NCBI RefSeq assembly: GCF_035083965.1
Contig: NC_089738.1
Coordinates: 5,913,398 to 5,977,397 of the forward strand
Source: Branchiostoma lanceolatum
Taxonomy: Eukaryota > Chordata > Leptocardii > Amphioxiformes > Branchiostomatidae
DNA: 64,000 bases
Direction of reading: 5' to 3'
Part shown: positions 16,171 through 41,800 of the stretch, piece by piece
How the letters are laid out: the number at the start of each line of letters is the position of its first letter
Position numbering within the stretch: position 1 is the stretch's first letter
Notes under the pieces: model-generated
Database searches by the model: none
Seen by the model: only the letters and a program-made list of their open reading frames with translations
Told to the model about the DNA's origin: nothing
Translations under genes and position numbers: made by a program

Positions 16171-16217
<47 letters not shown>

Positions 16218-19200: not shown

Positions 19201-21220
19201 TCTCTCTGAAAGGAGGAGGAACGCCCGCCTCACCTTTTTCTATAAGCTAGTCAATAACTACATCAATATTAATACAGATAGTCTACTGAAACCAGCTCAG
19301 GGGCGCACCCGGGGAAGCCACACGCTCAAATTTCAACCACTTTACGCCCGAACAGACTCCTACAAATATTCATACTTCCCCCGCACCATCCCCGAGTGGA
19401 ACGCCCTGCCTGGCGCGGTTGTTACGGCTCCCACCGTTGAGTCTTTCCGCGCCAGGCTGGAGGCCTGCCCGCCTTAGCCTGGGACCCCCTCCCCCCCTAC
19501 TTTGCCCCTAGCGGGGTTATTTGGGGGTAACCGAAGTTGAAGTTGTACTCAAGTTCATTGTACCTGTTCCCAACCCCTTTTACAGAGACACCAGGTACAG
19601 GTGACTTGTTTCCAGTCTATCAACCAGAGTCCAGAAGGAGAACCTCCCATGTATGTGCTTTATTTACCTTCAGTATACGTCCTACTAAGTTAACCATTGA
19701 TTACAAATGGTTATGGGGCATTAGTTTGAGGCAAGAACGTGAAGTATTCATCTGAACTGTATAGAATAAGATGCTGTTAGTTATTTGGTTGCGCACTGTT
19801 TCATTAGTTTGCTGTTTTTCTACCTTAGATTAGCCTGTGTTTACACAAGCTCTCGCTGGCAGAGGTCAATAACCCCCCTCCCCGCCACTAGGGCACGATA
19901 ACCGTCAGACTGGCCCCTAGGAGCGCAATTTAGTCAGGCTAATGTTAGATGTATTTCACATTTTGAAACAACATATACATTTATTTGCTAAAGAAAATTC
20001 TACAAAGCATTTCAGATACATACTAGTATATAGCTGAAACGAATTGAATACAATGTATGATGTGTCAATATGTAAAAATAGCTCAGAATTTATAACTACT
20101 TATCCAACTGACATCATGTTTATCATCATGTTTGTTTGTTTGTTTGTTGTGTTGTGCAGGTATGAGAGAATAGAGATCCCTCTTCACATCTTACCGCAGG
20201 ACACCATGAGTCGGCCGTGTCTGGAGTCACTGGTGGAGCTGCCCCAGATCTTCTCTCAGGAGGAACAGGAGGCATACAGCAGAACATTAGGGTAAACAGT
20301 CCTAAATCATCCATTAACAATCAGGCTATTAGCTAGCAGGGCGTCAGGGCGTCTTCTGGACGCCCTACAGTAAGAAACCAAGAAATTGGATGCCCTCCTT
20401 TTGTAGGGGAAACCCAGAGGACGCCCTGTTTCCCTGGTAATTACATACACGTGTTTCCCACACATACACTGGTCACTGTTGTTTTTTCCTCATACCAGAC
20501 GCTGTGCAAATAATGAATTGGAATATATCGTAAAATGTGATAGATCTGATGTTTGAGTTTCTAATCTTCAAATCATTTATTCATCTATCTATTAATCTTT
20601 AGGGTGGCCCCTTCAGTTAACTAAGGAACTGATTAAACCATAAGTACACTCTACACATGTTAGTTTCAATGTTAGAAGTGTGGAATTCTAATTTCAGCTA
20701 CATCTGAGTTACTTTAATATGTTGTTTGCTTGCTTGCTTGTGTTACAGAATCCGTTGTTTTAAAAAAAAGCTTAAGCTTCTGTGCTGAATCCTTATACTG
20801 TAATCCTTGTTTTTTTCACTGTAACTTTATGTTTACTGTTTTCACAGTCACCTCTGTACTGTGAACTTATCATTACCATAAAAAAAACTGTTGTTATCAT
20901 GTATCATTCCTTGACTTGGCGCCACCGTGAAGTTAAAGTTCAGTGAAAGTACCCATTTTCCTTACACCGTGAAAGTTAAGATAAAGTGAATTACAGTACA
21001 TTTTCTTTACAGGGAAGGCCTGGACCTCACCACCTGTATTCATAATGGTACAGTCTACATGCAGTCCCTCAGCCACCTGATGGAGGTGCTTAGTGGGTCT
21101 CTAGTGCAGACACTAGAGAACAGGGTACAGTATAACAAGAACAAGGTAAAAAGATTGAAGGAAGAGAAAGAACAGCTGGAGAAAGATATACAGGAATTTC
21201 ATCAGAAGAGCCAAAAATGA
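9900..21220 (+). CDS. BRCC3: BRCC3/BRCC36, Lys63-specific JAMM deubiquitinase
   Basis: Six exons, 268 residues: 9900-10004, 18015-18222, 18785-18873, 19586-19650, 20160-20291, 21013-21220. All junctions are GT-AG and in frame. The start is set by homology ([24 protein letters not shown], aligning with the animal BRCC36 N-terminus). It is a zinc metalloprotease of the MPN+/JAMM class that cleaves K63-linked ubiquitin in the nuclear BRCA1-A and cytoplasmic BRISC complexes. Active-site residues are all present: Glu35 (GLCIGE), His92-Ser93-His94, Ser102 and Asp105, in the exact H-S-H-x7-S-x2-D spacing. The Asp105 codon is split by intron 2. Exon 6 encodes the C-terminal coiled coil ([22 protein letters not shown]) used to pair with Abraxas-type partners. 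Intron 1 (8.0 kb) hosts a complete Gypsy element in antisense. The family call is certain; the complexes are inferred from the family. Confidence 0.95.
10463..10523. repeat. Tandem duplication of a 30-bp unit (x2)
   Basis: ACGGTCCAAACGGACTTTCA plus AATGCAACAG occurs twice back-to-back without mismatch in BRCC3 intron 1, just upstream of the Gypsy insertion. Confidence 0.8.
10764..10949 (-). repeat. 3' LTR of the Gypsy element (186 bp)
   Basis: It begins TG and ends CA, and is identical to 17729-17914. On the minus strand it is preceded by the purine tract at about 10950-10962 (polypurine tract for plus-strand priming). Confidence 0.93.
11426..11770 (-). repeat. 30-bp minisatellite inside the Gypsy element
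   Basis: About 11 copies of a 30-bp unit (plus strand GTTCTGAGTTCAGCAGGTAA then TCCATATAAA). As 30 is a multiple of three, one minus-strand frame (11427-11876) stays open and reads as a 10-residue repeat (LLNSELYMDY). It lies between the pol region and the 3' LTR. Whether it is translated is unknown; the strict periodicity alone can explain the open frame. Confidence 0.85.
11768..12370 (-). CDS. Gypsy pol C-terminal extension / third frame, in -1 frame of the pol stop
   Basis: After the pol stop (12367-12369) the -1 frame is open for about 200 codons down to a TAG at 11768-11770. It encodes an acidic region with three near-repeats (GSTERDTPQ.. [12 protein letters not shown] / DSETEPKER), then an Arg/Pro segment '[13 protein letters not shown]', then a Pro-rich tail. 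RRPPP-LTYD-like tails commonly end Gypsy integrase polyproteins. The segment is therefore probably a C-terminal piece of pol separated by a one-base shift, or a separately expressed product. No good internal start is obvious before Met at 11977. Confidence 0.6.
12367..16320 (-). CDS. pol: Gypsy pol polyprotein (protease, RT, RNase H, integrase)
   Basis: A 1317-codon open frame. Domains in order: a Gln-rich run (~36-50, encoded by a GTT/CAA microsatellite at 16163-16216), aspartic protease with '[11 protein letters not shown]' (~92), reverse transcriptase with 'YMDD' at residue ~556 (14644-14655), RNase H with '[11 protein letters not shown]', and integrase with an N-terminal His/Cys zinc region (~970). 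The integrase catalytic triad is D ('ISIDYVHL'), D ('HDQGGEF', ~1098) and E ('GQVERFNR', ~1130). The C-terminal RNA/DNA-binding part ends 'NILPD'. It overlaps gag by 55 nt in the -1 frame, so it is most likely made as Gag-Pol through frameshifting, not from its own ATG. No stop or frameshift interrupts it. Confidence 0.95.
16163..16216. repeat. (TTG)n microsatellite encoding poly-Gln at the pol N-terminus
   Basis: About 18 uninterrupted GTT/TTG trinucleotides. On the minus strand they are CAA codons, giving a poly-Gln run just after the frameshift overlap. Confidence 0.9.
16266..17423 (-). CDS. gag: Gypsy gag (capsid/nucleocapsid)
   Basis: A 385-codon frame ending in a CCHC zinc knuckle '[14 protein letters not shown]' (C-x2-C-x4-H-x4-C), characteristic of retroelement nucleocapsid. 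Upstream, a capsid-like helical region (around '[18 protein letters not shown]') follows a basic/Ser-rich N-terminus. The true start may be the second Met (17402). The last codons overlap pol. The leader between the primer-binding site and gag is about 280 nt. Confidence 0.9.
16293..16299 (-). promoter_or_regulatory. -1 ribosomal frameshift slippery heptamer (GGGAAAC) in gag-pol overlap
   Basis: On the minus strand the heptamer is phased G GGA AAC in the gag frame. This is the X XXY YYZ arrangement needed for -1 slippage. Shifting here enters the pol frame at '[10 protein letters not shown]', past which pol is open. I did not fold the downstream RNA for a pseudoknot. Confidence 0.8.
17708..17725 (-). 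other. Primer-binding site complementary to tRNA-Gln 3' end
   Basis: Three bases inside the 5' LTR, the minus strand reads TGGAGGTTCTACCGAGAT. This is complementary over 18 nt to the 3' end of animal tRNA-Gln (…ATCTCGGTAGAACCT plus CCA), which I match from memory of that tRNA. The match stops after 18 nt, as is usual for a PBS. Confidence 0.82.
17729..17914 (-). repeat. 5' LTR of the Gypsy element (186 bp)
   Basis: Identical to 10764-10949, TG...CA ends, followed by the CTGA target duplication at 17915-17918. It should contain the element's promoter. Confidence 0.93.
18332..18750 (+). mobile_element. tRNA-derived SINE family C, copy 1 (full length)
   Basis: The head has a B-box-like GAGTTCGAATCCTGG (18393-18407). 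The body (CCCTTGGGAAATGCACTT... CCTCGATGTAAAAGAACCC... AATAAATCTGTCCGGATATGC) is shared with 27612-27950 and 35446-35760. The tail is (AAAC)n. It lies in BRCC3 intron 2. A (TA)n run at 18312-18327 precedes it. Confidence 0.8.
19143..19545 (+). mobile_element. 5'-truncated LINE, RT C-terminal tail and 3' UTR
   Basis: The frame 19175-19480 encodes '[20 protein letters not shown] ...[15 protein letters not shown]...ARLEACPP', the C-terminal tail of a Jockey/CR1-type element. It is related to, but distinct from, the 5006-5936 family. The stop is followed by a short 3' UTR ending near GAAGTTGAAGTTGTACT. In sense with BRCC3, intron 3. Confidence 0.8.
19832..19941. mobile_element. Short MITE (TAGCCTG...CAGGCTA), copy 1
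   Basis: About 110 bp with inverted ends (TTAGCCTGTGTTTACACAAGC… / …GGAGCGCAATTTAGTCAGGCTAA). A second copy in inverse orientation is at 49375-49477. BRCC3 intron 4. Confidence 0.65.
20322..20560 (+). repeat. Family B dispersed repeat in BRCC3 intron 5
   Basis: It starts CAGGCTATTAGCTAGCAGGG 30 nt after the exon 5 donor. It then has the GGGCGTCTTCTGGACGCCCTA hairpin, the GATGCCCTCCTTTTGTAGGGG block, and TTTTTCCTCATACCAGACGCTG. Sense orientation. Confidence 0.8.
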
Positions 21221-21297: not shown

Positions 21298-21790
21298 AGG
21301 CACCCAGAGCGTTTTATGAGGCTTGAAAGCTGGAAATATTCTAGTTGCTGTAATCTTTATGAAATTGACATTTAATACCACTGTTTACCTCATTTGCGTG
21401 CAGATTTCTTATCAAAAGTGCTCAAAAGCGGCACAAAAATAAGCTACAAGGTGATCTTTTAGTTTCACGTGCCTACTAGTGTAAATAGACCGGTACCATA
21501 GCCCCGCCCACGTCTGTCAAAACGTAAAAATGCAAAATCAAAACATAAAAATGCAAATATTTGACAAACTTGCAGTCACTCTCTCATTGGTCGAACCGCT
21601 AATTGTGACAGACAGTCAGGATCAGTCTATTAGGGCTTGGATTTTCTATCAGTTCTCACCACACAACGGCATCGTATCTTTGCTCCTTTAATGTCGATAT
21701 GTGTTATTGAAACTTACTATGTGTAGGAATGACTAGAAATTTGAGTTTTTTTATTCAAGTTTCAAGCCACATAAAATGCTCTGGATGCCT
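21298..21790. mobile_element. TTAA-flanked MITE family D, copy 1 (493 bp)
   Basis: The ends AGGCACCCAGAGCGTTTTAT / ...AAATGCTCTGGATGCCT are inverted repeats, each abutting TTAA (21294-21297, 21791-21794). It is about 90% alike by eye to 45628-46119, also TTAA-flanked. TTAA targets are characteristic of piggyBac and Kolobok groups. There is no transposase, so it is non-autonomous. It lies in the BRCC3 3' UTR/downstream region. Confidence 0.82.
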
Positions 21791-22368
21791 TTAAGTTTTT
21801 TCTAAAATTATGTATCTATGACTATGTATACAAGTATGACGAAACAAAGGGTTCATAATATCTACTAGGTAACAATTAGATGTCAACAGGGAACTTCAGC
21901 CAGAATTCTGGGAACATCAGTCAGATTTTGGGCAAATTATATCATAATTAGAATAAAAATCAGTTGATATTAGTCTATCAGAATGATGATAATGTTATTG
22001 GCTTCACAAAAAGGGTTTAAGTTTTCCGAATTTAAAATGTCTTTCCAGATTAAGACTTTTGCCTATTACATGTATAGAGCCTCAATTTAGGACAAGATAC
22101 ATTATATTTATTGTATTGTTGCATGTAAAATGAAAATATCCTACCTATGTAAAATGTAGTAGTAGATGTTGTTGACCAAAGTTGGTGCTATATGCATTTG
22201 AATATATAATAAATTATGTAATGAAACACACATTGGCTATGTTTTATGGACCATTAATTTACAATGCATCAAATGTTCGAAAAAACAATTCAACTTTGTC
22301 ATTTTGATACACAACATTTTATGAATTACAAAATAATGAAATACCTTCTCTGCTTTGCAGTGATGTAC

Positions 22369-23676: not shown

Positions 23677-26600
23677 TTATTTTATGTTCCTGACGATCCG
23701 TCTACAGTGTGTGGACTTCATCTCCGCCAGGGCGCCCTCTAGCACCTGCGTCATGTGCAGCAGGTTCACGGGGTCAGTCTGCAGCACCTGGACATCCTTC
23801 TCACCTGTAGCAGCAAAAAAACATCTATTGGATTACTACATTACAAGCACTTGTTTTTATTGTATGGTACCTGGTAGCGTGCGTAGTTTGGAAGCGTGCG
23901 TAGTCCAGTGGTTAGCAATCTTGCCTCTGGAACTAGAAGCCCCGGGTTCGATCCCAGCTGTGTCGCTCACCCAACATGCACGCTACTGGAAAGGGTCGCA
24001 GTCCTTAGGACGGGACGTTTAGCCATGGTCCACTGTTCATTGTGCTTGTCAAAAAGAGCTAGGCCAATTTCCCCAGTACAATGAACCTGTAAATACGTCT
24101 GTCTTCTCCGTCATGACCAGTGGAAGATTAGCTCATCTGTTCATTGAGTTCATTTGAGCTAAACTGGTTCGAGATCACTTTCCTTTCCTGGTAAGATACT
24201 GTAAATGCCTTTAAGTTTGCGGGGATTTAATTTCGCAGTAGGGAGGGAATGGAGTACATTTAATTCACAATGGAAACAAGGGGGGAGGTTTGTAGATGAC
24301 AGAACAATTTCACACAGTAGTTTGTGGTGAAGAGGATACATAAAAAACCGTGAACATTAAACCACCGCAAAAATTTCAGCATTTACGGTAGGCTCAGCTA
24401 CCTTGAGTGATCAAAACGAGATTGGCAAAGAAGGTAGAACTAAGGGAGGGAGGGGGTGTAGAGTCCAGAATTTCATGGCCATTGGTTTGCTAAAATCTCC
24501 CTACTTGTACCACCATGAGAGCTTTCCAGCATAAAAATAGGTTATCCTCTAGCTCACATCATTACACTGTGTGTCCAAATACCAGTCTCATAGTCCTTCT
24601 ATAGTAACAGCTTCTTTCTAAGGACTGAAATGAGGCTCTCTCCCTGGCAAGTATTTTCCTCTCAAATACAACCGACAAGCCTTCAAATCCAGCACTTACC
24701 GTCATCTCCTAGCATAGTAACAAAATATGCCATCAATTTAGCTCAGTGTCCAGAATTGGCCTCTAAATGGCTTTGCAATTTTGTTTCAGGAAAGAGTGTA
24801 TTCTCCTTCTGAATTAGCTACATATGTCTAATTTACCTGAGTCTTGGGTGTGCAGTTTCATCATAAGCCTGGGAGTGACCTGATGTCTTAGAGTCCTGCT
24901 GGCAACCTGGAACAACAGAGAATACAAAATTTCCTGTACTGTATTATTTTCAATAGAAACGCATGAAAAATAAGTACAGGAAGTGAACACGACACCTCCA
25001 TAACAGGCAGCTGGCACCCTGGGCTTGGGGACCTTCAAAGTACATATATATGGTGCAGACAAGTTAACTTGTTCAACCTGCAATAGACAGACGATAGATT
25101 TTCTTCAGCTATGCTGAACATTTATTATGATGCATACCTGTCCTTGGTGCTGAAAACAACTTCTTGAGGAGGACCAATATTTCATAGAACACAATATGTA
25201 AGGCTATTAAACACAGTTTCTTGAACTGAATTATGCTCTTATCAATAAGTGTGTTGGGTTTTTAATGTACTCTTCTCAAGGAACCTCCAGGTTTACATCC
25301 CATGCAAGATGCTAGATAGTACTCATTTGCCTTTGAGTCAAGTGAAGTACATTTCCCAAGGGCACGACTTTTGCACCTGCTAGGGACTTGTACCAAGGAA
25401 CTTTAGACTCTGAGTCTAAATGACAAGGTTACCATGTCATTTCTTCCTTAGTGTCAGACTTTTATCTGGCTAATGGGGGGGGGGCAGGCTTCCCCAATGG
25501 GTTGTATGGATTATATTACGCGGTATCTTTGCATGTCAATCAATTTACAGCAATGTTCAAGTGTCTCACAATGTTATGTACAAAAAACAACAGTGGAAGT
25601 CAGGGGGGTGGGTATGTAATTACCAAGGAAACAGGATGCACGTCCTCTGGGTGTCCCCTGCAAAAGGAGGGCATCTAATTTCTTTCTTTTTTTAGTGTAG
25701 GGCGTCTAGAAGACGCCCTGACGCCCTGCTAGCTAATAGCCTGCTTACCGTGACCTCCAGCCTCCACTCTAGATTGCCGTAGTGAGGGAGGTCCATGCTC
25801 ACCTCTGACAATATGGTCCTGATCTCCGTCCTGTTGTCTAAGTACACTTAGTGTAGGGCGTCTAGAAGACGCCCTGCTAGCTAATAGCCTGCTTACCGTG
25901 ACCTCCAGCCTCCACTCCAGGTTGTGGTAGTGAGGGAGGTCCATGCCCATTTCTGACAGGATGGTCCTGACCTCCGTCCTGTTGTCTAAGTACACTTAGT
26001 GTAGGGCGTCTAGAAGACGTCCTGACGCCTTGCTAGCTAATAGCCTGCTTACCGTGACCTCTAGCCTCCACTCCAGGTTGTGGTAGTGAGGGAGGTCCAT
26101 GCTCATCTCTGACAGGCTACTCATTTGTTTACTTAGTGTAGGGCGTCCAGAAGACGCACTGACGCATTGCTAGCTAATAGCCTGCTTACCGTGACCTCCA
26201 GCCTCCACTCCAGGTTGTGGTAGTGAGGGAGGTCCATGCTCATCTCTGACAGGATGGTCCTGATCTCTGTCCTGTTGTCTAAGTACACTTAGTGTAGGGC
26301 GTCTAGAAGACTCCCTGACGGCCTGCTAGCTAATAGCCTGCTTACCGTGACCTCCAGCCTCCACTCCAGGTTGTGGTAGTGAGGGAGGTCCATGCTCATC
26401 TCTGACAGGATTGTCCTTATCTCCGTCCTGTTGTCTAAGTACAGCTGCAGCAGCAGGGAACGGAGTTCCTCACTGAACCCCAGAGTCATGATGGAGTCCT
26501 GGAAGTCTATCTCTGAAATCTGGGAGGGGGGGGGGGGGTTGGGTGAGGGGGGGGGGGGAATAGAGATGAAAAGAACATATAGAGTATCATATAAAAAAAG

Positions 26601-28540
26601 ATAAAGCAGGCATCTTTAATTGTGGTAAAGCATGATGCTTTTTCAAGTAGCTAGTGGTAGTGCAATGTGGCTTCGCTATGGCTCGCGTTTTGGACCAAGC
26701 ACACCGGGTCACCCCTACTCTTCTCGATAAGTGTGCTGGGTTCATTAATGTGCAGAGGTTTGACGCTTGAGGCTTATGCCTAAAGCTCTCTCATACACGG
26801 GGCCGCTGGCTTTACGTCACCATCCGAAAGGACAAAGAGTATTACACTTAGTTCAAATGCAATGTGAAAGTATATGCAGATTGCTGTAAAATACTCATTG
26901 AAAAGAAAGTTGTGATTCTCCATTGCAGAGGAAACTGGCTGTGTCCTTTTAAGTCACTGTTTACTTATTACATTTTTCCTAGGCCTGTAATAAGAAAATT
27001 TGGTCATCTGCAAATACTCTGATTTTAGTGTGCTTGAATAACAGTATGTATGTAAGAATAATATGTACTTACCATGTACCTAGCTGCTTAATATGTATCA
27101 AAGTGAGAACACCATGTACTTACCATGTACCTAGCTGCTTAGTATGTGAGTAAGAACACCATGTACTTACCATGTACCTAGCTGCTTAGTATGTAAGTAA
27201 GAACACCATGTGTACTTACCATGTACCTAGCTGCCTCTGTGAGTAAGAACACCATGTGTACTTACCATGTACCTAGCTGCCTCTGTAAGTAAGAACATCA
27301 GTCCCTCCACTCCATGCTGTACTGTTTCTGATGCAACTGCAAGTTTTTCTACAATGACAGAAGAAAAATGATTTCAAAGAATTGATACGGAAGATTATTA
27401 CAGATACTCCATCTATTTTACATCACCGATTGGCAAGTTTTATGCTGAAGCTCTGAAATATTCCATTTTAAACACACAGAGAGACAGTTATGAACATTAC
27501 TAATAGCATTACCTTTTTATCTTATATCCCTGCATCTTCTTAGAATTTTTTCATCTCTACTGACATATATCATACAAATGAAACAATCTTGTCTTGCATT
27601 ACGCAATTAGAACATCACTTGTCCTGTTGACGTTGTGCCCTTGGGAAAGGCACTTTATGCAAATTTCCTGACTTCACCAAGGTGAAAATGAGTACCTAGC
27701 TTCGGCTACGGACATCCCTTGAATAGGACATTGAATAGAGGCCCGTTGTTTGAGAAGATCCACACTTCAAGCATGTAAAAGAACCCACCACACTAATATC
27801 CAAAAGAGTAGGGGTCCTTCCCGGTGTGTGTGGACCAAATAAATCTGTCTGGATATGCAGCTAGTACAAGTTGTTCAGTACAAACCTGGTGTGTTACACC
27901 ATGATGCAGTTTACCAGATAAGCAAAAAACAAACAAACAAACAAACAGATTGCTTACGTGCTGCTGACTGGTAGAGTTTAGGATTAGGTCCGGACCTGAT
28001 GAACTCCATGGCTATTCTACAGAATTCACTGACAACTGCAACAACAAGAACAAATACAAAATCGTTGTGAATAGACAAAAATTATCGAAGAGCATACAAA
28101 AAAGGTACACAATAGTTTTGAAATATCGGCATGGCTATTGACAAGAACATTCTGTCATTAGTGCAAGAGAATCCTTATAGACAGGATCATCCTGTCAATA
28201 GTGCAAAAAATCTTATTGACAGGATCATCCAGCCAATAGTGCAAAAAATCTTAGTGACAGGAATATCCTGTCAATAGTGCAAAACTTCTTATTGACAGGA
28301 ACATCAAGCGAATAGTCTCGGGCAAGAGGTATACAACGGTCTTGAAACCTTTGAGGTACAGTCCTGTATTATAATTTCTTCTTTCTTTTTGAGGCTACCG
28401 CCTTCTTACTCTTACTAGTCTTAGGTTAGAGCAAAAGTTTGAACAACAAATTTACAAGGCAAGCAACACGTACCTTCCACATCGACTTCATTCAAGAAGC
28501 CTAGATGCTCCTTGTGTTCGTCTGCTAACACTAGAAGCAT
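23677..28540 (-). CDS. COMMD2: COMM domain-containing protein 2
   Basis: Six minus-strand exons: 28474-28540, 27958-28035, 27266-27348, 26346-26519, 24837-24906, 23677-23804. Total 600 nt, 199 residues, which as I recall is the human COMMD2 length, with all junctions GT-AG and in frame. The start MLLVLADEHKEHLGFL aligns with the known N-terminus, so the longer open frame upstream (to 28615) is not used. The helical N-terminal domain (VSEFCRIAMEFIRSGPNPK) precedes the C-terminal COMM domain, which includes 'YHNLEWRLEV' and ends 'HCRRIVRNIK'. COMMD proteins form a ring in the Commander/CCC complex for endosomal cargo recycling. Oddities: the ends of exons 3 and 4 with their donors are tandemly multiplied in the following introns (separate entries), and the exon 4 acceptor uses an almost pure poly-C tract. 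Confidence 0.95.
23874..24182 (+). mobile_element. tRNA-derived SINE family A, copy 2 (full length)
   Basis: The promoter boxes are well preserved: TAGTCCAGTGGTTAGCAATC (A-box region) and GGGTTCGATCCCAG (B box). The family body then runs to GAGCTAAACTGGTTCGAGATC. It is not a tRNA gene: no cloverleaf closes around the boxes. COMMD2 intron 5, antisense. Confidence 0.85.
25230..25440 (-). mobile_element. SINE family C fragment (minus)
   Basis: The reverse complement shows the family C body (AAGGGCACGAC/CCCTTGGGAAATG, GAGTACTATCT..., CCCAACACACTT), but degraded. COMMD2 intron 4. Confidence 0.5.
25441..25743 (-). repeat. Family B dispersed repeat in COMMD2 intron 4
   Basis: Minus strand from 25743: GCAGGCTATTAGCTAGCAGG, the GCGTCTTCTAGACGCCCTACA hairpin, GATGCCCTCCTTTTGCAGGG, TGTTGTTTTTTGTACATAAC, and on to AACCCATTGGGGAAGCC. 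It is the one full copy. Its first ~55 bp are repeated within the array 25743-26345. Confidence 0.8.
25743..26445 (-). repeat. Tandem array: COMMD2 exon 4 end + donor + family B start, five units of ~150 bp
   Basis: The 3' ~97 nt of exon 4 (from TACTTAGACAACAGG), its donor (CACG|GTAAGC) and ~55 bp of the adjoining family B element are repeated four more times downstream. Exon-like segments lie at 26190-26286, 26052-26117 (shortened), 25897-25992 and 25749-25845, with donors at 26189, 26051, 25896 and 25748. The copies lack an acceptor, so they are not complete exons. Each is still translatable (…RTILSEMGMDLPHYHNLEWRLEV). Units differ by only a few bases. Confidence 0.9.
26521..26560. repeat. 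G-run cluster (plus) / poly-C polypyrimidine tract of COMMD2 exon 4 acceptor
   Basis: Plus strand: GGGAGGGGGGGGGGGG TT GGGTGAGGGGGGGGGG. On the transcribed (minus-sense) RNA this is an almost pure C tract leading into CCCTCCCAG|ATTTC. The DNA has several G-runs suited to quadruplex formation. Confidence 0.8.
26695..26830 (-). mobile_element. SINE family C fragment (minus)
   Basis: Its reverse complement matches the middle of family C (AACCTCTGCACATTAATGAA..CCCAGCACACTT...AGTAGGGG). Degraded; COMMD2 intron 3. Confidence 0.45.
27062..27290 (-). repeat. Tandem array: COMMD2 exon 3 end + donor, five units of 46-51 bp
   Basis: The minus-strand unit TTCTTACTTACAGAGGCAGC + TAGGTACATG|GTAAGTACAC (last ~35 nt of exon 3 plus donor) occurs five times. 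Intact CATG|GTAAGTA donors have their first G at 27265 (functional), 27219, 27170, 27123 and 27072. In the copies the exon reading frame meets a stop within about 13 codons (…GGCAGCTAG), so use of a distal donor would truncate COMMD2. Confidence 0.9.
27612..27950 (+). mobile_element. SINE family C, copy 2
   Basis: The body matches copies 1 and 3. It ends in (AAAC)n at 27927-27947, only ~8 nt from the COMMD2 exon 2 donor (27957). Antisense to COMMD2. Confidence 0.8.
28136..28318. repeat. ~40-46-bp minisatellite in COMMD2 intron 1
   Basis: About 4.5 copies of a unit around CTTATTGACAGGATCATCCT GTCAATAGTGCAAAAAAT. The core GACAGGAT..ATCCTGTC is itself palindromic. Confidence 0.8.
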
Positions 28541-29812
28541 GGTTGGAAGTCTACTCGCCACGAATTCAACGAAAACCTCACAAAAATCTTCGACCAAAAC
28601 CAGCAACTCCCCCAAAGATGAACCCGGAAGTCCTGTGACCTACAAGTGCCGGTTTACGGCAACAGTTTACGACAACTGGCCGATGCCACTGAAATCAAGA
28701 TAGTGGTTACATGATGGTATTGTATATAAGATTAGAACCTTTTGAATAGCAATATATATTACTATTATGTTATAGATATGAATCTAAAAGAACAGAGTAC
28801 CGTATACTACTTTATTTTGATAAATAGTAATATTAGTAATATTTTATTTTAAGCACCCCTTTTTGAAAAGTGTAGTCCTCCTGTATTGTTTTCCGACATC
28901 TGGCTGATACCACTAAAATCAAGGTATTGGGTATATTATAAAATTATTTTTAACATAAAAACCCTTTTTTGATACAATTAACCAGCTATAAATATAAGAA
29001 TGATACAATATTTATAAATTTAAAAGAATTATATGCCATATAATCCTTCATTATGATAAATAGTCATATTTAAAGCACCCCTTTCCGTAAAGTGTAGTCC
29101 TCTTATATTGTTTTCCCATGGTTCATAGCGTATTTGGAGGGAGGTCCGAGTTCGAAATGCACAGAGACGTAAGTTTTGGTAGATTTCCTCGCTTAAAATG
29201 TTATTTTTCACACCTTTAAGATGAATGTGTAGAATCTAGGATTTTGTCATATTTATTGAAGACTGTTTAGAATAGATTCGAGTTGAGGAGCTGTTGTGAA
29301 ACCGCTGTTTTAAGGCAGACTCGTGTCTTCGGTAGAGCACAGTTTAAAAAGTTTTAGTTCTTTCTTATCATGTTGATCAAGAGTAGCGTCCTTGAAAACA
29401 AAAGAAAAGGCGGACGCGACAACTTTGTAACACCTGTTATCGGATTATGGCACTTAACCTCCATTAAAATCCGCCAGGTTACATAAATCCACCACTTTGA
29501 AAAACAGTGGGTTTGAGAGATCTCTAATGCAGCACCCCCATGTATGCGCAGTTTTAGATATACAAAAGTGCATTATACCAAGGAGGTTTTATTATACTTG
29601 GGAACGTTGGGGCAGAGATCTGTTTGGACGTATCTTTTCAGGGTGGCAGAATTACGTTAGTAGATGTGTTAGATGTACAGCATTTCAGATAAAGTAAAGG
29701 AAAAGTCGGAAGCATTGTACTTATTTGTAGATAAATATTTCAGCCACATTTTCCTTTGACTTTTTTACAGGTGTCAGTGGTTTTGTGAACGGTGATCGTA
29801 GAGACGCAAATT
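28541..29812. promoter_or_regulatory. Divergent promoter region between COMMD2 and CEP63
   Basis: The 1.27 kb between two outward-facing start codons should contain both transcription starts. An acceptor-like TTTTTTTACAG at 29760-29770 suggests CEP63 has a non-coding first exon upstream. Two related AT-rich stretches (28740-28920, 28980-29110), each with AAAGTGTAGTCCTC followed by CC(T)G/ATTGTTTTCC, form a local duplication. I see no coding exon. Confidence 0.45.
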
Positions 29813-32800
29813 ATGGACCACAGGGCAGTTTTACAGGGACTGGAGAGGCAGATGGGAACAACGTAAGTGTTTTAGACAAAATTGTCAAAAAGCTGCAAAG
29901 GTCGTACTGAAGCACTCACCTATTAATATTAAATATAGAATATAAAACTTGACACTGAATTTCAGGCCTCAGGCTAGTTATCAAGACCTATCAAATACAT
30001 GGTATTCATGTAAGAAATTGGCTGTCAAAAGTCACCTAAGTTTAGTCCATGAAAAACTTACACGGCAGGGGTGTCTGACCTCTAAAGTGTCAATTTAGAG
30101 AAAAACACTTTAGAGCAACTTGTGCCCCGATGTAAAAGATGTAGAAAAAACTTGTGCAGTGCAGTGTTTTTAATGTATTATTTCTACTCCACTGTACTCT
30201 AACATTGTAGGCTGCCCAGTACAGTCACCTCCTGTCTGATTTTCCAAGTGTCTGTACTCTGTAGGCTGCCCAGTACAGGCACCTCCTGCCTTATATTTCA
30301 TGTGCCTGTTCTCTGTAGGCTGCCCAGTACAGTCACCTCCTGTCTAATATTCCATGTGTCTGTACTCTGTAGGCTGCCCAGTACAGTCACCTCCTGTCTA
30401 ATACTATAAATGTCTGTACTCTGTAGGCCGCCCAGTACAGTCACCTCCTGTCTGATATCCCATGTGCCTGTTCTTTTTTTTTTTTTTTTTTTTTTTTTAT
30501 TCAACATAAGTACAAATATACATGACAAACAATAAACTAAGCGTGCCTTTTAACGAGATAACAAAATACTAATATACTGAACCAAGAATAACAAACTTAA
30601 AGTGTAACAGTTGACAGAACATGAAAAACAATAAGAATCTAATCCGTACATAAAGTTCCCCACTTACCCCGATGCTTCTCCAGCTTCTCTCTCCGAGATG
30701 CAATAAGAAACTCTGTTTTCTGATAGAAAGATACTAGTTTTTTGAAAGATCGCAAATGTAAACATTTAAAGCGCCTGGACCGAAAAATAAAGACTTTGCC
30801 CAGTAAAATGATTATATTTCTTAAAGGAGATGTATTTAAGGACAGTTCACCAAAAATAACCATAAAAGACGTTAAATCTAAAGTCAGACCGATTTCATGA
30901 GTAAGCCAATTTTCCACTTCAATCCAAAAAGCAATGACATGAACACACTCCCAGAAGACATGTACATATGTTTCCTCATCATTATTGCAAAAAGAGCAGG
31001 AGTTTGACTCAGTCAAATTCCAGGTTCGAAGAATTTTATTGCAGGGTAAAAACTTATAAATTAAACGGTATTGAAAGTACCTCAAACTTGGGTCAATAGT
31101 AGCTTTAATGATATTTGTAAAGACCATTTTCCAAGGCACATGAGTATCAAAATAGTCAAACCAAGATAATCTAATTTTGTGCGCCACAGTAATTTGATTA
31201 TTAGATACAAGAAAATAATTATACACGGCTTTGTTTATCTTAACATTTTTTAACCAAGCGTAGTTCTTTTGAAATATCATGCATACTAAATTCTTTGTAT
31301 GTTCCCTGCTAAGTAAATTCTTCCATTTCGACGGAATGGCGGATATGATCTGCTGATAACGTAGTTGGTCACAAATATTCGTATACATTAAACAGAATTC
31401 ATGGTACGACATCAGAAGGCCGTCATTAGATAATAAGTCATTAACAAAGATTATATTTCTATTCAACATAGCAGTAAAGAAAATAGGTTTATTATCAATA
31501 ACAATATTTGAATTATTCCAGAGTATTTGTCGTCTAACACCACCTGGCGACGTGGGTTCCAAATGTTGAAATTCGTACCAGGCATCAAGAACTTGAGATA
31601 GAAATGTTGTAAGATTTAGAGATGTGACGGAGAGCAGATGAAAAAAGGGTAGTAAACTCAAACGGAGGCGGGGGTGAGAATTTATGGACCGCGAAACAAA
31701 CCACTCAGGATGAAAATACAATTTTGGCACCCACGACGCTTTCATTGTTTTATCATATATTCGCAAATTTTTCAAATTTAACCCCCCATTTTCAACCGAG
31801 TTATACAAGACTTTACGTGCAACTCTTTCAGGGCCATCGTTCCAAATGAAGGAAAAAATTTTCTTCTCACACCTTTTGAAAAACAAGTCATCCGGCGATG
31901 GCAAAACTTGAAATAAATTAGTAAACTGGGAAACCACCAGAGAATTAACAACGGTAATTTTACCATATAATGATAGGGATTTACCTTTCCAAGGGCGCAG
32001 TACGGTATCCAACCCTTCTATTCGGGGCTCAATATTTACATTGACAATACTATTCATGTCGATAGGTATGTGCCTGTTCTCTGTAGGCTGCCCAGTACAG
32101 TCACCTCCTGTCAGTCGGAGCTGCAGGAGCTGATGAGACAGATAGACATCATGGTGAACAGTAAGAAGGCGGAGTGGGAGAGAGAGCTGCAGGCCGTGCA
32201 GGTGAAACTGGACGTCAGGGACAAGGAAGTACTGATGCAGAGGGCTACACTGGAGGCCAAGCACCAGGAGGTAAGAGAATATACAAGTTACAGTGTTCTC
32301 ACCAGAATTTTTTCACAGCATAGGGGTCAGGTACCATGGGTACAGAAGGCTAACTTTAGCGGTGCAAGTCACGCGTGGAGTGCTGAAGACATGACCAGAG
32401 TAGGGAGTCTGGCATATGTTCCCCCGGAAAATTTGTAAATTCATAACCCAATGAGACATTATTTCATGCATTTTGAGGGATAAATTCCTCTGTCACAGCC
32501 TCATTCTAAAGCCAAATATGAACTTTTTATAAGATTTATGAAGGGTCACAAGGTTTGTCCCAGAAAGAAACACCCTATGCTGGTTGAAACACAGCATAGG
32601 GGTCCAGATCACAGCATAGGGGGTCCAAATCACAGCATAGGGGGCCCCTATATGCTGAAAAGGCCTGGCGAGAACACTGAGTTACAACCCCACCCTCAAC
32701 AGGAAAGGAGGCTAGGCCTACTACCACCCAATACACACTTGGAAAAATTTCTGGACGTACAAATGACGTCACCTTTTTTCCTGGGTGCAAAACGGCCTTG

Positions 32801-35800
32801 CGCGTCATACAACAGGCATTTTTATGGACATATGTTACATCCAGGATGAACGTACGATGAAGTTGTACTGGCCATAAAAATGCCTGTCATAAGACGCGTG
32901 GGGGCAATTCACACCCAGGAAGATAGGCGACGTACGTCAAAGATGTGAACACACATCATTAGCTCCTGTACTCGTACAACAGGACCGTTTGACCTTTTTC
33001 AAAAACATTAAGTAGCTTGAGTAAATATATTTTGGATGTCTAACCTTCATCTTATACCAGGAGGTACTGTGTGGTTACTAGCATTACTGGCTTGCCTGTT
33101 CTGTTTTACACAATGTTCATGGAGGCAGCCATCTTGGTCACCTGATGCAGCTCAACCAATCAACACCAAGTGGGCTGGGTTGAAAAACTATGGTGTAAAG
33201 AAAACCAGTGTCAGCTGTGTCAGAAACAGTGTACAAAACAGTACAAAGTGTGCATTGTTTCTGTTGTTCAGAAATTAATTCTTCACATTATTTTCCAGAT
33301 AGGGAATTTGCGGCAGCAGTTGGAGGGTTTTGAGAGAGCCCAGCGGGACCTTGTGGCTCAATATGAACAGCAAGTATCAGGGCTGAGAAATGAGGTGAGA
33401 CAATAGAATCCAGGCTCTTAGCTAGCAGGGCGTCAGGGTGTCTTCTGGATGCCAAACACTAAGAAAACAAAGGAATTAAATGCCCTCCTTTACAGGACAC
33501 CCAGACTGGCCAGAGGACACCCTGTTGCCCTGGTACTGTAATTAAAGACACACACACACTGCAACTGTTATTTTTTCCCCATACCAGACACAGGGAGAGC
33601 TTTGAAATTGATTGACATGCGAAGCTACCAGGTAAATTTTAAATCCATAGAGCCCATGGGGAAGTCTACCACCCACCACCCCCCCAATTTCCGGATGCCC
33701 TGTCTTACTAGTACTGTCTATAACTCCGGATGCAACTTAGCTGAAAGGCTGATAAAAACAGTTTGTAAATGAGCCTTATGAACATACAAGACTGCTGGCT
33801 TTAACAAGAGGAGTTACTGTCACTGTGTAAAAGTCACAATAATACATAAACGATTAATTTTCTTCTTGCATTCTTTTACAAGATAGTCTACCAATTGCAG
33901 CTACCATAAGAGACAGATGCTGCAAACGATGGTGTTGTTTTTTTTCTCACTGAAGTTCTCCCTTCTTGATACAGCTGACAAACCTAAAGACTAAGTATGA
34001 GAAGCTGCAGAGGCACCAACTGAAAAGATCATCAGGGTCCAGTGTGGAGAAGGACAGACTGTCTGCAGAACTGAAGGACAGTAGGACGGAGATAGAGGCA
34101 CTAAGAGGCAAAGTAGAGGTAACTTCTTCTTTGTTCTTGAAGCCACATACTTCAACTTGCTGAAGATTCTGTAGCCTATATTGACCGTGTATATGGTTTG
34201 ATCCACTACTTTTGTCAAGGAGGGACAAACCATAGCAACTCTATGTAAGAAGTGTCTTGAAGTCACCTTACACTACTGAGTCAGTGAGTGTTCATCATTG
34301 AATTCCGATGACAGATAAAAAGTGAATTCAAAGTAATATCGATCCTGGGACCAGTTTAGCTCACTGAAGAACTATCCTTCCACAAGTCGTGACAGAGAAG
34401 ACAGATGCTATGTACAGTACTAACTTACAGGTTCATTTTACCGGGGAAATTCCCCTACATGTAGCTCTTTTCGACAAGCACAATGAACAGTAGACCATGG
34501 CTTCCGTCCTGAGGACTACAACCCTTTCTGGTGGTTGGCATATATGGTGAGCAACACAGCCGGGATCAAACTCACGGCTTCTAGTTCCAGAGGCAAGGTC
34601 GCTAAACACTGGACTATGCACGCTACCTACAGATACATGTACTAAGTATTGTAACCGACAGTGAATCATGTTTTGTACCCTTGTAGGATTATCGTGGACG
34701 TGGTAAGGACTGGGACAGCCAGCGTAGGTCACTCCAAGGTCAGATTCAGAGTCTGGAGGCTCAGAGGAAGACTCTGGCAGAGAAGTGTGAACACATGCAG
34801 GTGGGTACTAATAGAAACATCAGGCTATTAGCTAGCAGGGTGTTAAGGCGTCTTTTGCACGCCCTACGCTAAGAAGACAAAGAAATTAGACACCCTTCTT
34901 TTTGCAGGGGATTCTCAGAGGCTGCAATGTTTCCCTCATGCACATATGACCGTGTTCCCTCACATACACCGGACAGTTATTTTTTCCTCATACCAGACAC
35001 TGGGACGGCATATAAATTGATTGACATTCAAGGTCACCAGCTCAAGTAATTGTTAATCCGTAGAGCCCATTGAAGAATTCTTCCCTCCTCAATTTTTTCG
35101 ATACTCTAAAAATCTGAGCTAAAATCTGCATAAGAAACTATTATCACTGGTCTATATTATTTGTCTTGCAGTGATTATCATTAAAATATGTATTTTCACG
35201 AATCACAGTTTCTTGTAATTCACATTTGTTGCCATAGCAACAGAGTCTTAGTTACCAGTCGCAGCTGAACAAGCGGCGGCAGATGCTGGAGAGTGTGGAG
35301 TCGACCCACCAGGTGCAGCTGGCGCAGGTGGGCGAACAGCTGGAGAGGGCACGTGATGACATCAACATGCAGGATGAGACCATAGAGAGACTCAAGGTCA
35401 GTCCTCAGCTTTTCTGCATCTTTTTATTCTTGGAAAGGAAACCCTGAAGTTGTGCCCTTGGGAAAGGCACTTTACACAAATTTCCTCACTTCACTCAGGA
35501 GAAAATGAGTACCTAGCTTCAGTTAGGGACGTCCCTCAGCATAGCACGTTAAATGGGGATCCCAAATTGTTTGAGGAGAGCCACACCTCGAGCACATCAA
35601 AGAACCCACCACACTTATTGAAAAGATTAGGGGTCCATCCCTGTATGCATGGATCAAATAAATCTGTCCAAATATGGGGCTTGTAGTCTTTTGTACAAAC
35701 CTGGTGTGTTACGCCATAACGCAGTTTACCGGGAAGGGTATACGATACATACAAACAAATGGAAAATTCATGGAAAATCCTGACTGAATATCTTTTGGCA

Positions 35801-38800
35801 GATCATAGACTTCCATGGTTTTGTTTGGTTCTCTTTGTTGATATTATTTTACTCACAAATACTTTATAATTTCATATTGTGAAGGAAGCCCTTATATTTA
35901 AGATCTAACTTCATTTTGATTCCCCCCAACCCTGTACCTTTTAGTCTGAGCTGGATGATACCATCTCTTCTAAAGACCAACTCCTAGGGGAGAATGAACA
36001 GTTGAGAGAAGAGCTAAGGAAAGCAACGAGGGACAACAGGGTTTGTGCCTATTTATTGTCTTTATTAGTGCTTGAAAATTATACGTGATCTTTAGAGACA
36101 TATAGAATACAACACGGGGTATTCCATATCACCCGAGGTACCAGAGTTTGATAGCAAGGCCAAGGGAGTTTGGCGGTAGGAAACCTAGTTATGTTCTTTG
36201 AATAAAGATACCGACAAGTTGAAAACAGTTTATGTTTTTGTCATTGAATAAGTTCAGAAAAACACATTGTTAATTTTTTCAAATTTGTCAGGTACAGGTA
36301 CAGGTCCGGACCTGTACCTAAACCTCTGTACTGGTACCTGTACCTGATGTTACGTTTAGGTACGCAGCACTACTGTCTACAGTAACCACCTGTCTACTAT
36401 GACCATTTTCTTTAAGTCCCTTTAGTGGTCAGTGTAGACAGGAAATTTTCAAACTTGTTGCCTCACAACAGAGGCTGGAGGACGAGGTGAAGAGGCTAAA
36501 TCTGGAGCTGCAGTCCCGAGACGACCTGATCCAGGCTGCTGAACGGGACCAGAAGAACCACAGTAAGGACCTGTCCCGCCTGGAGGAGTCACTACACATG
36601 AAGGACAAGCTTATCAGGTACAGTTTACAGCACTACACAGTCATGTCACTACACATGTCACTACAGGTGCCACTACACATGTCACTACACATGTCACTTC
36701 ACATGTCACTACACATGAAGGACAAGCTCATCAGGTACAGCTTACACCGCTACACATGTCACTACACCTGTCACAACACATGTCTCTACACATGAAGGAC
36801 AAGCTTATCAAGTACAGTTTACAGCACTACACATGTCACTACACATGTCACTACACATGAAGGACAAACTTATCAGGTAGAGATTACAGTACTACATATG
36901 TCACTACGCAGTCACTACACATTACACTACACATGAAGGACAGGCTTATCAGGGAACAGTATACAGCACTGCACATGTCACTACACAAGTCACTACTCAT
37001 GTCACTACACATTAGTCAATACACATCTCACTACACATGTCACGACATGTCACTACACATCTCACTACACATGAAGAACAAGATCATCAGGTACAGTTTA
37101 CAGCTCTCTACACATGTCACAACGCACGAAAGACAAGTACGTGTTGAAGTTGACCATTCAATATATTCTCTGCTCTTCTTTCACTGTAGATCACTAGAGG
37201 ATGCTACTAGGAAAGAGGAGGCCGCTGAACTCAACCAACTCAGGGAGGAGCTCAGTAGCTGTAGGTCAGAAGCCAGGTACAGAAATATGTCCATTCTTGT
37301 CTTTGGCGTCTGGAGTATCAACAAAATTAACTGTGCAACTGTTGTTGTTTTTTTCAGCAAATACTGCAAGCAGCTTTTGAATGTTGTATCAAAATCAACA
37401 CAACAACCAAACATTTATAAGCTACATCACAGGTCAATATCAAGAAAAGTGTTGTTTTTTCAGGTTACAGTCAATGGTGTTATATACATGTAGGACAAAG
37501 CAATATTTTAGGGGAGGTTCACACTAGTGCATATATTCAAAGAGTTTCCATATTAGAGTCTAACATGTTTTAAGTTCAGGTAAAGTTTGCAGAGAAGAAC
37601 TTGTTTTTCACTTTGACCCATCGCTGTGTAGCCTGGTTATCGAACCGAAAAAAACGACTTCTTCGGCCACAAGCTTAACCTAAGACAAAAAATATTAAAC
37701 GTAATTCATGCAGACTTGAATATATACACTCTTGTAAACCCCCTTAAGTTCTCAGTAGCCTCGTTTTCATCACAAATGCTGTATATCCAGTAGTTGCTGT
37801 TGGAGAAATAGAAGCAATAGAGGGGTCACAAACTGTGCACGGGGGTAATGTTTGGTCATGCCCATATTTTGAAGACCATTCAATGCATTCCATCCCATGT
37901 TCCTGTGTGTTCCTGTCCTCAGAGCCTGCAGGAAAAATGAACAGAGACTCCGAGAGGAGGTTGACAGGTTACAAGCTAGGTACAGTCGTCATGGAGACAA
38001 CGTCATGCATGAAACTCTCTCTGCACATAGTTTCAAAAGCATGCATAATCACATGATTATTAATAATCACCCAATCCTAATCTGCATGACAAATTTCTTC
38101 AAATTAGATGTAAATTTTAGTGTTAGCCTTAGTGACAATCTTTTTTTGTTCAACTGTCAATGATTTAGTTTAGCCTGAAAATCTCTCTGCACATAGATTC
38201 AAAAGCATGCATAATCACATGATAATCACCCAATCCTTGGGTTTATAGGAAAAGCTGGGCTGTCTAGCTGGCCTGTCTACCCTGTGCTGTCTACCCTTTT
38301 TGACAGCCCAGGGTAGACAGGCCGGGTAGATGGCCCAGCTTTTTCCGTAAACCCCCCAATCCTTCTACATGACAAATTCCAATCAAATTAGATTTAGGTG
38401 TTAGCCTTGATGACAATGATTTTGTCCAACTGTCAATGATTTAATTAATAGCAGTTTAGTGCACCTATCAGTTGAACTAATTCTGGTTCCTTAATTCCCA
38501 AATGTCAATTAATCAAAATCGTTGCTGTTAGTGTGGTTAGTGTTCTGATGTGCACCTACCAGATCTAGAGATGTGGAAGTTAGGCCATGTTGATTTGATT
38601 ATGAATGACATCCGCACATGCATCAATTTCCATCCCTTTCCCAAAAAAACTTTCGCCCATACTGTAAATCTTACAAACCAGGTGCAAAATGACCAACTCT
38701 ACACATGTCAAAAATATATGCCATAAATTGCCGAAAAGTATTTCAGAAAACGGTACTAATTTCGTAGAATGCCAAAGTCGATTCCAATGTCAAAGAAGAA

Positions 38801-41800
38801 GATGTGAAAGAATAAAAATGAAGAATATCTATATTGTTGCACAGTGTACCATTCGTCAGTCATTTGTTCAACCTTCCTGACCACTTAGATCTCTCTTCTC
38901 GATTGCATGTTTGCATCGGTTTTTGCGGTTCCAAGATCTAGATAATGTCATTCATATAATGTAAATGAACATGGCCTTAAGGTGAAAGATGCAGTAACAC
39001 AGTGCAGTACTGACTCTGCCCCCCTCCCCGTGTAGTCTCCAGTCCTCTCAGACGGAGGTGGCTCACCTGAACACAGAGCTGACAGGGAGGATACAGGAGA
39101 TCCGCAGACTGGAGGGGACAGTGGTGAGGGAACTACAGACTGAGCTGGACAAGGTTGGTGTAATGATGTATCTTCTCCTAACTACTAGGTTGCAAAAACA
39201 ATATTTTTATACTCTATACAAATGAGCCAGAACGGGCAATACATTTGGCCTTAATGCTAGAATTCTATATGTACCAAATTCCAATATGTCCAAAAGTCTA
39301 GTAGTTACTGTTAGTACATTGAGATGAAAAAAATTCTTTATATCTGATTGGACTACAAATGTAGGTTGATATACATGTACTGTGATCACTTTGATTGGTC
39401 CTATACGTCTGTATTTGTATATTACTTGAATGTGTTAAAATTTGTTCTTTCCCTGATTGTATTTTTTAATGTTTGTGCCCAGGGATATCTGAAAAACAGA
39501 TCCGTAAATCCGAGATATACTCTGGTTAGATAAATGAATTGAAATCTCCAAACTTTTGCAGTAGTTTTATTTTTGTGGTGACCTACACAAGGATTCATGA
39601 CACCACAAATGTATGCATTTCCAATGTGTTACAATTGTTAGAAATGTGTATGCAAAATTGTTTGACACAGCGGAAATCTCTTTTTCCCTCATTCTAGTGT
39701 TTACCATAGATAAAATAAAGAAGTTTTCATTTATTTTAGTCTCAGGGCAGGTTAGTTCAGGAGGAACAGTCGCACACATCGGAGGTGGAGGGGATGAGAG
39801 CAGAGCTGTCCAACCTGACGGCCGACCTCCACCAGCGAGATGTGTCCATCGCCGAGCTGAGCGAGAAGTCGTCCCACATGGAGCGACAGCTGAGAGACAC
39901 CAGCGACAGGCTGGACAGGAAGGGTGCAGAGCTACAGGTAACGCTACGGTCCCAATTGTGCCATTGCCCGTAGGGGATGTAGTTCGGGCCGGGCCCTGAA
40001 GCCACAAATTTGTCCCGGTGGACCGCCGTCTACTAGAGGGGTACCTCCCGGTGTTGGCTCGATTAGCTCACAGCTTTTATTTGTTACCGGGTCCCGCATT
40101 GATTTTAAGTCTGGGCTGAAATGATTCAGGATTCTGTCAAAAAAAGTCTGGCAGCCGCAGGGTATCCCATGAGGCCATGTAGAGGTGCCAAAAAATAGGC
40201 CGTCAACTACCTGGTGTGCCCCTTTATCTAATTGGGACCGAAGCGTTAGTAGGCAATAGTATTGTATCCGGACTTCCTCGAGTGAACCTTACACACTCAT
40301 GTCACATCTTCAGAAAGGACTCAAGCCAACACTCAGACGTGTTTCACGTATGGTGCAACAGCTGATCATGAGAGACACCAGCAACAGACTGGACAGGAAG
40401 GGTGCAGAAATACAGGCCAGGCTTTTAGCTAAGATTTATGGAACCCAATGGGATCTATATGGACTTACCCTTATGAGATCTTCCTGGGGGCTTTGGATAG
40501 CATGGGCTTCAGCACCATGGCCACACCACAGCTGTGGTAGCTAAATGCTAGATGAGAACAATGTCATAAAAAAACATTTGGGTGTTAATTCTCATGCCAA
40601 TTTCAACACCAGATACATGTACATGTAGCTTTGCATGTCCCAGTGTCTGGCATATGAAAAAAACACTCTAACTGTTGTAGTGTGGGGGGGGGGGACACAA
40701 TCATGTAAATGCAATTACAAGGGAAACAGTCCAATGGCATCCTCTGTAAAATGAGGGTGTCTAATTTCCTAGTTTTCTTAGACACTAAGTGTAGCAGACT
40801 CCCTGCTATCTAATAGACTGACAACAGGTTCTAGCCTGGTATCAGGTATTTTGCAGCTCTAGTTCGAAGGAAAGAAATCATCGATAAGCAGACCAGCAGG
40901 CTGGATACCAACCTCATAGTTGTCATCTTCAGTACAAATGAACTATCCCAAAAATGTCCATCTGTATCCCTTACTATTATAGATTATATGTTTTGCACTT
41001 ATGCAGCATTTTTTTTCTTTATAACTAAAGGCTGTCAATATACCAAACCCATAGACCAAACCACCTCAGTTGAAACATTATGTGGAATGTAAAAAGAAAA
41101 AAAATTGAAGTGCAAATATCTTTAATGACTGCAGCTGCCCTTTGATTTAACAAAACCTCCTTGGTTTAACTGGTAATTTAGATGGACATCTATAGCTAGG
41201 ATCTCTCTATTGTATTGCATTCATCATGAGTAAGTTGCGAGATTGAAAGAGATGTGAGTCTTAACTGTATTTGCTGGCTGTGTTCATCAGGTGACCATGG
41301 CCCAGCTGGAAGCTCTCCGACTGGAGAATCGCCACCTCAGGGAGTTAACACAGGACGACCAGAGATCAGCATCCAAGGTGGGGAAGATATATGTTGGTTT
41401 ATTGGTCAGAAATAACGGTGCAATGGCAACCAGTGCTGAATTGTTGCAGGGTTTACAATCACAGAATATACAACAGATACATATTTGCTCCACGCTTTCA
41501 CTTTGTGGAACTGTCGCAAGGGTCTGGGCGGCTGGCATTCGGCGCCAGCAGGTGACCTCAATACGACCTTCCCCAACCGAAGTCAGGTACCCATTCACAC
41601 CTGGGCGAAGTGAGGAAAGTCGTGTAAAGTGCCTTTCCCAAGGGCACAACATCGGGCCTAGAAGTGGTTTCGACCCCTGGACCTCTGCTATTTAATACAT
41701 CATTTCACATTACTGTAAGTCTTGATAGATGCAGTTATTTTATATTCACAGTTTTCACAGAACATTACACTCACTGTAAATATTTGTTCAGTAGTGATTT

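Follow-up and report, generated by a model that had tools for sequence, protein, structure and literature searches.

Tandem arrays over exon/intron edges of the adjacent amphioxus genes COMMD2 and CEP63 are probable mirages

Introduction

What places tandem repeats on the edges of exons, and how does a gene put up with them there? The question is raised by a 64-kb stretch of the Branchiostoma lanceolatum genome (64,000 nucleotides of contig NC_089738.1, positions 5,913,398 to 5,977,397, assembly GCF_035083965.1; hereafter the window), in which an earlier note had reported four arrays, each of about five or six tandem copies, at the donors of COMMD2 exons 3 and 4, the acceptor of CEP63 exon 2 and the donor of CEP63 exon 8. 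Tandem Repeats Finder (TRF) and counts made from the sequence bear this out. Repeats of this kind have been known in amphioxus gene by gene since 2002; they are named 'mirages' in the excerpted text of PMC3087553, which cites the Adh3 case (Canestro et al. 2002) and other loci, describes the genomic mechanism as unclear and puts mirages forward as seeds of new introns. We consider it probable (roughly 0.7) that the COMMD2 and CEP63 arrays are amphioxus mirages, that is, tandem duplications of an ordinary kind that run over an exon edge and are tolerated through splicing of the copy that bounds the exon interior.

Results and discussion

COMMD2 occupies 23677..28540 on the minus strand, in six coding exons (28540-28474, 28035-27958, 27348-27266, 26519-26346, 24906-24837 and 23804-23677), and CEP63 lies at 29813..48250 on the plus strand, in 18 coding exons that encode a 720-residue model. 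TRF detects all four arrays, at 25692-26443, 27042-27302, 30206-30471 and 36642-37120, and in every one the repeat unit contains the exon edge together with the splice signal, as the note had said. In the exon models the functional site is each time the exon-proximal copy; the remaining copies, counted from the sequence, are called decoys here. At the COMMD2 exon 3 donor (27059..27295, minus strand) the functional GT at 27265 is accompanied by four decoy donors at 27219, 27170, 27123 and 27072, in units of 46, 46, 47, 47 and 51 bp; on the coding strand the exon edge reads ...GGTACATG|GTAAGTAC, with TTCTTACTTACAGAGGCAGCTAGGTACATG|GTAAGTACACATGG as the sequence repeated in the four decoys. The COMMD2 exon 4 donor array (25692..26443, minus strand) has its functional GT at 26345 and four decoys at 26189, 26052, 25896 and 25748, in longer units (156, 156, 137, 148 and 155 bp). 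Its exon ends ...GAGGTCACG|GTAAGC on the coding strand, and the repeated part takes in 98 bp of exon and 58 bp of intron: the exonic 98 bp (shorter in one decoy), GTAAG and a transposon-like fragment consisting of the initial ~53 bp of the dispersed element F1 (one decoy lacking 8 bp).

The CEP63 arrays show that acceptors as well as donors are copied. In the exon 2 acceptor array, on the plus strand, five decoy exon starts spaced 54 bp apart (30211, 30265, 30319, 30373 and 30427, within 30184..30474) are separated from the one functional unit (32068..32112, exon 2 start 32087), in which CTCTGTAG| precedes the exon and the exon begins GCTGCCCAG. Between them lies a long interspersed nuclear element (LINE)-like insertion (30475..32067, minus strand) with poly(T) at its left end and a zf-RVT domain on the minus strand, flanked by the 13-bp repeat ATGTGCCTGTTCT (30462-30474 and 32068-32080). 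Because this insertion now splits the decoys from the functional copy, the array predates it. At the CEP63 exon 8 donor (36588..37126, plus strand) the functional exon end at 36617, CTTATCAG|GTACAG, is followed by five decoy ends, at 36734, 36811, 36876, 36952 (where the GT is lost) and 37090; TRF gives periods of about 65-142 bp, and the array carries nested 12-bp CACTACACATGT repeats. A sensitive scan of 76 junctions, those of the 38 introns in five gene models within the window, adds one case to the four arrays: the 3' edge of CEP63 exon 12 (39891-39938) has a decayed second copy 478 bp downstream (40369..40416, plus strand), in which GT has become GC. Across the arrays the units end about 14-100 bp away from the splice site. 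Short words that resemble one another occur in the exon and in the distal intron at COMMD2 exon 3 and CEP63 exon 8, as microhomology at the founding breakpoints might leave them, though a decayed last unit would look identical.

As far as can be judged from the sequence, the arrays are genuine. Collapse or expansion of repeats during assembly would be a natural worry in so highly heterozygous an animal (PMC9673378, in its excerpted text), the more so since one globin mirage was seemingly misassembled in a published draft (reported in the excerpted part of PMC3087553). The units differ among themselves by point changes and indels, however, and one array holds the LINE-like insertion with its 13-bp flanking repeat; moreover, the same portion of PMC9673378 describes a B. 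lanceolatum assembly with 146x PacBio coverage, which may not be the assembly of this window. We regard an artefact as extremely improbable.

The proteins indicate which copies are functional. Use of the exon-proximal sites yields a COMMD2 that matches its human counterpart end to end and a CEP63 that matches that of B. lanceolatum, which supports the mirage interpretation. Predicted COMMD2 (199 residues) aligns without gaps over its full length with human COMMD2 (PDB, E 1.5e-83); the B. belcheri COMMD2 sequence is 93% identical to it and has identical exon joints. Predicted CEP63 contains the Pfam CEP63 domain (E 3e-71) and, wherever residues align, agrees at 100% with a 722-residue B. lanceolatum protein, so that the arrays do lie in a cephalochordate gene; the sole difference is two extra residues (QQ) in the database protein at the exon 6 acceptor, for which reason exon 6 probably begins 6 nt earlier than modelled, at 35238. 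Another B. lanceolatum CEP63 record is 99% identical to the model; by these matches the window belongs to B. lanceolatum or to something very near it. The joints of exons 1/2 and 8/9 recur in a B. floridae x japonicum record as well as in two from B. lanceolatum. To judge from these sequences, then, the database proteins carry the joint made from the exon-proximal site.

This anatomy suggests how the arrays could have arisen and persisted. A tandem duplication running over an exon/intron edge would be the start, and slippage or unequal exchange may have been the motor of subsequent growth. Splicing would take, in the RNA, the copy that bounds the exon interior, which is the first donor or the last acceptor, and purifying selection would keep that copy and so anchor the array, the decoys being presumably neutral. 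Such arrays would be tolerated because the surplus exon edges are left in the intron, with no change to the protein. The earlier note had stressed that the copies always lie on the intron side of the functional site; they do, yet this placement is forced, because elsewhere the copies would enter the mRNA, and it gives no extra clue to origin. Its suggestion that selection retains an array only if a single outermost site stays functional agrees with this tolerance and does not account for the enrichment of arrays at junctions, to which we now turn.

The note had also held that arrays should not favour boundaries. Keeping the span and unit that each array shows, we placed it throughout the 38 introns, at all positions that left an exon overlap of less than one unit. 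Under this null, 4.2-20% of placements, depending on size, touch a junction for the five larger arrays, and 7-20% for the four junction arrays, so some contact with boundaries is expected of any array that spares exons; the observed contact still lies above it. Of the five intronic arrays with a unit of at least 30 bp and at least 4 copies, excluding those of a long terminal repeat (LTR) retroelement, four are on junctions against 0.56 expected (P 4.7e-4), in a window chosen because of these arrays and hence not a blind test, a reading that applies to all P values from this null. The proportion becomes 4/6 when the 30-bp array of the retroelement is added (P 7.3e-4), 4/7 when the threshold is lowered to at least 2 copies, admitting two further arrays of about two copies (P 1.4e-3), and 4/9 when at this threshold both retroelement arrays are included (P 5.1e-3). 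The lone exception among the larger arrays is a 38-bp, 4.4-copy array in COMMD2 intron 1 (28136-28305), away from junctions.

Counted per site, on the other hand, no enrichment at junctions is evident in the window: local duplication is found at 5/76 junctions and at 141/1500 random intronic points (124-156/1500 across five score thresholds). This is so partly because much intron sequence is taken up by the arrays themselves; a scan at 10-bp steps marks 384 duplicated points, of which 167 belong to the five junction cases, 61 to the retroelement, 34 to F1 pairs and 122 lie elsewhere. The presence of four mirages within 64 kb, with odds near 5e-4 under the exon-sparing null, means that the phenomenon may be common, and may be countable in present long-read amphioxus genomes. 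A separate 13-bp tandem array, at 68-265, stops ~27 bp short of the intron 3 acceptor of a DUF229 sulfatase-like gene and does not include the acceptor.

The decoy splice sites to which the note drew attention are real and, at the level of sequence, mostly intact, GT or AG being kept in 17 of 18. Scored with a home-made position weight matrix (PWM), 12 of the 18 equal or exceed the functional site. These comprise every COMMD2 decoy (eight), three of the five at CEP63 exon 8 and one of the five at CEP63 exon 2. At exon 8 the first, third and fifth decoys score 7.1, 7.3 and 7.1 against 7.1 for the functional donor, the second and fourth being weak (3.4 and 1.6); at exon 2 the decoy at 30319 equals the functional acceptor (9.0 each) and the remaining four score 7.4-7.7. 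In their exon-derived parts decoys diverge from the functional copy by 2-9%, with indels and the one dead donor, as would be expected of non-coding copies.

Such well preserved sites might instead be retained by selection as splicing regulators. The near-complete survival of GT/AG is in keeping with this, as is the CEP63 exon 2 array, in which exon-derived columns are less variable than intron-derived ones (3/26 against 11/27, P 0.028); the other three arrays give P 0.24-0.60. Pairwise differences are smaller in exon-derived than in intron-derived sequence in three of the four arrays, with the reverse at COMMD2 exon 4. In the column test, as in the codon-position test below, the most diverged COMMD2 exon 3 decoy was omitted, a COMMD2 exon 4 decoy had its aberrant 5' stretch masked and one CEP63 exon 8 row was aligned by hand, whereas the pairwise analysis and that of proximity to the splice site keep all those rows. 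Splicing is, besides, reportedly undisturbed in published amphioxus cases (excerpted texts of PMC3087553 and PMC3902484), and we think selection on the decoys highly unlikely.

Three results do weigh against our interpretation of the arrays as tolerated tandem duplications. Changes unique to decoys fall at codon positions 1, 2 and 3 in the ratio 9/5/14 (third position 14/28, P 0.05), which is marginal, and columns beside the splice site are less variable, 11 against 26 expected, again marginally (P 0.043 within ±8 bp, P 0.10 within ±12 bp). Copying from the functional exon on separate occasions could account for both hints no less well than selection on decoys. The third result is that tandem duplication alone leaves the presence of four out of five arrays on junctions (P 4.7e-4) unexplained.

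Two kinds of local cause might fill this gap. The first, proposed in the earlier note, is replication slippage coupled to splicing or to R-loops, which would generate the duplications. That the arrays sit on splice signals, three of the four at donors, agrees with it; the units end away from the splice site (by the 14-100 bp given above) and not at it, and DNA hairpins are no stronger at the affected junctions. Ranked by fold z-scores over ±35 bp among the 76 junctions, the four mirages stand at 38, 41, 49 and 70 and CEP63 exon 12 at 73, and we reject slippage driven by hairpins. Splice-coupled slippage as a whole appears very unlikely.

The second is that exon edges, chiefly the first tens of intron bases, are hotspots of insertion or breakage, for example in a nucleosome-poor linker, that inverted-repeat elements and tandem duplications alike would collect there, and that repair there founds mirages. 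This is suggested by F1, an element of about 300 bp, of which a profile search of the window returns seven insertions; six begin at +6 to +31 inside a donor, in sense orientation. The longest copy in COMMD2 intron 4 (25428..25743, minus strand) stands behind the last decoy; at the functional and the other decoy donors its initial ~53 bp recur at +6, as part of the exon 4 unit. Others begin at +17 of CEP63 intron 3 (33411..33722, plus strand), +21 of CEP63 intron 5 (34821..35137, plus strand), +31 of BRCC36 intron 5 (20322..20637, plus strand), +25 of intron 1 of the DUF229 gene (3593..4218, minus strand, interrupted by another repeat at about 3766-4147) and, with a truncated 5' end, about +12 of the fifth intron in an unnamed coiled-coil-like gene (59718..60012, minus strand). 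The seventh is antisense in CEP63 intron 12 (40418..40820, minus strand; profile match 40820-40489, left end extended to 40418 by eye) and directly adjoins the decayed exon 12 copy, while the functional exon 12 donor adjoins another inverted-repeat element. A parallel is offered by introners, which in the excerpted text of PMC9860276 show lower predicted nucleosome occupancy around their own 5' splice sites.

For the six insertions, the proximity of F1 to donors has P 3e-11 when insertion is assumed to be uniform across introns, 4e-8 when the ancestral introns are taken as ~300 bp and 1e-3 when only 55 bp per intron are taken to tolerate it, figures that rest on a small number of copies in one 64-kb window. 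Three of the seven copies were noticed owing to their donor proximity; the four found later, three of them donor-adjacent, give P 8e-6, 3e-4 and 0.04 under the same nulls. Three of the six donors, furthermore, depend on gene models unsupported by any full-length match from outside: the BRCC36 model reads through in frame with Pfam JAB and BRCC36_C on its pieces, the DUF229 model is in frame with a Pfam match on its large exon, and the coiled-coil-like model is open for 1024 residues, with no Pfam result and in-frame stops confined to its last exon.

Several further observations speak against a hotspot. No element is seen in the unit of three of the five junction duplications, and one of the arrays involves an acceptor. 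Not every other dispersed repeat is donor-proximal, and a scan of 37 introns, which missed F1's own ends, places the start of only 2 of its 18 further inverted-repeat pairs within 31 bp of a donor. A hotspot of this kind seems unlikely as the origin of mirages. Its fuller version, in which the first ~30 bp of amphioxus introns attract sense landings of F1 as an inverted-repeat transposon family, breakage or repair there founds mirages, and the two belong to a single process that would also yield raw material for new exons and introns, strikes us as rather improbable. Ordinary tandem duplication with tolerance through splicing is still the account we prefer, with F1 near donors as a concrete, testable suspect for what it leaves over; donor proximity of F1 and junction enrichment both deserve a genome-wide count.

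F1 has inverted ends of ~16 bp (CAGGCTATTAGCTAGC...), seen by eye in several copies and not returned by a majority consensus or by the intron inverted-repeat scan, and no consistent target site duplication was found at the F1 ends inspected. The element beside the functional exon 12 donor (39939-40249, at the start of CEP63 intron 12) has an end that reads TAACGCTACGG; since the donor is G|TAACG and TAACG falls within the element end, most of the 5' splice site seems to come from the transposon. A repeat with inverted ends extends over 32288-32680, its start lying at about +18 to +20 of CEP63 intron 2, and a relative of it is the sequence nested in F1 at 3766-4147. Elsewhere, the LTR retroelement (10764-17915) fills part of the first BRCC36 intron; its 187-bp direct repeats are 100% identical, it has reverse transcriptase, RNase H and integrase domains on the minus strand, and its own tandem arrays are of 30 bp and 96 bp. 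The window also holds two long imperfect palindromes (8418-8635 and 38239-38354, 75% and 79% self-complementary) and a ~500-bp repeat pair (21294-21794 and 45624-46123), 84% identical, with inverted ends and resembling a miniature inverted-repeat transposable element (MITE).

Relation to known systems

The phenomenon is already known, and within the literature searched the COMMD2 and CEP63 loci are new examples of it. A full-text search did not find the phrase 'mirage minisatellite', and among the matches listed in a broader search 'mirages' occur only in PMC3087553 and PMC3902484. The report of mirages at the amphioxus Adh locus, mentioned in the earlier note, is borne out, and the globin, PGBD5, troponin C and other cases in the excerpted texts of these two papers extend it to more than one locus; the genome-wide phenomenon that the note envisaged would go further.

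F1 invites comparison with introners, which, as far as the excerpted literature goes, are likewise dispersed in many copies, frequently carry inverted repeats and are associated with the ends of introns. F1 differs in starting 6-31 bp inside the intron, and its profile match stops at least 100 bp before the acceptor, so that its ends neither coincide with those of the intron nor recruit the splice sites as an introner's would, and we do not claim that it creates introns. The main text of PMC9860276 makes no mention of Branchiostoma, lancelet, cephalochordate, tunicate or chordate, and titles and opening lines of abstracts retrieved for amphioxus introners, or for a MITE at Branchiostoma splice sites, show nothing relevant.

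Closer relatives are found in amphioxus itself. The Adh3 mirages, as cited in the excerpted text of PMC3087553, have units of 10-72 bp and show length and somatic instability; they concern other genes, whereas here four arrays stand in two adjacent genes and one unit includes a piece of a dispersed element. In the globin genes of the same source BflGb6 has units of 150-160 bp, 6 and 3 of them in two haplotypes, and BflGb9 a unit of 157 bp; the repeats span 5' and 3' exon-intron boundaries, and reverse transcription PCR suggests regular splicing. As in COMMD2 and CEP63, both the 5' and the 3' edges can be copied and many copies retain AG or GT, while haplotype variation and splicing are reported there and the present arrays are known from one sequence. 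Lancelet PGBD5, in the excerpted text of PMC3902484, which also mentions troponin C, carries imperfect tandem repeats of 60 and 108 bp that include 5' and 3' splice sites, in copy numbers that vary between assemblies; it differs from the present loci, in which the database proteins skip every extra copy. Common to the published amphioxus cases and to the arrays described here is one anatomy, tandem repeats laid over exon-intron boundaries at both the 5' and the 3' edges.

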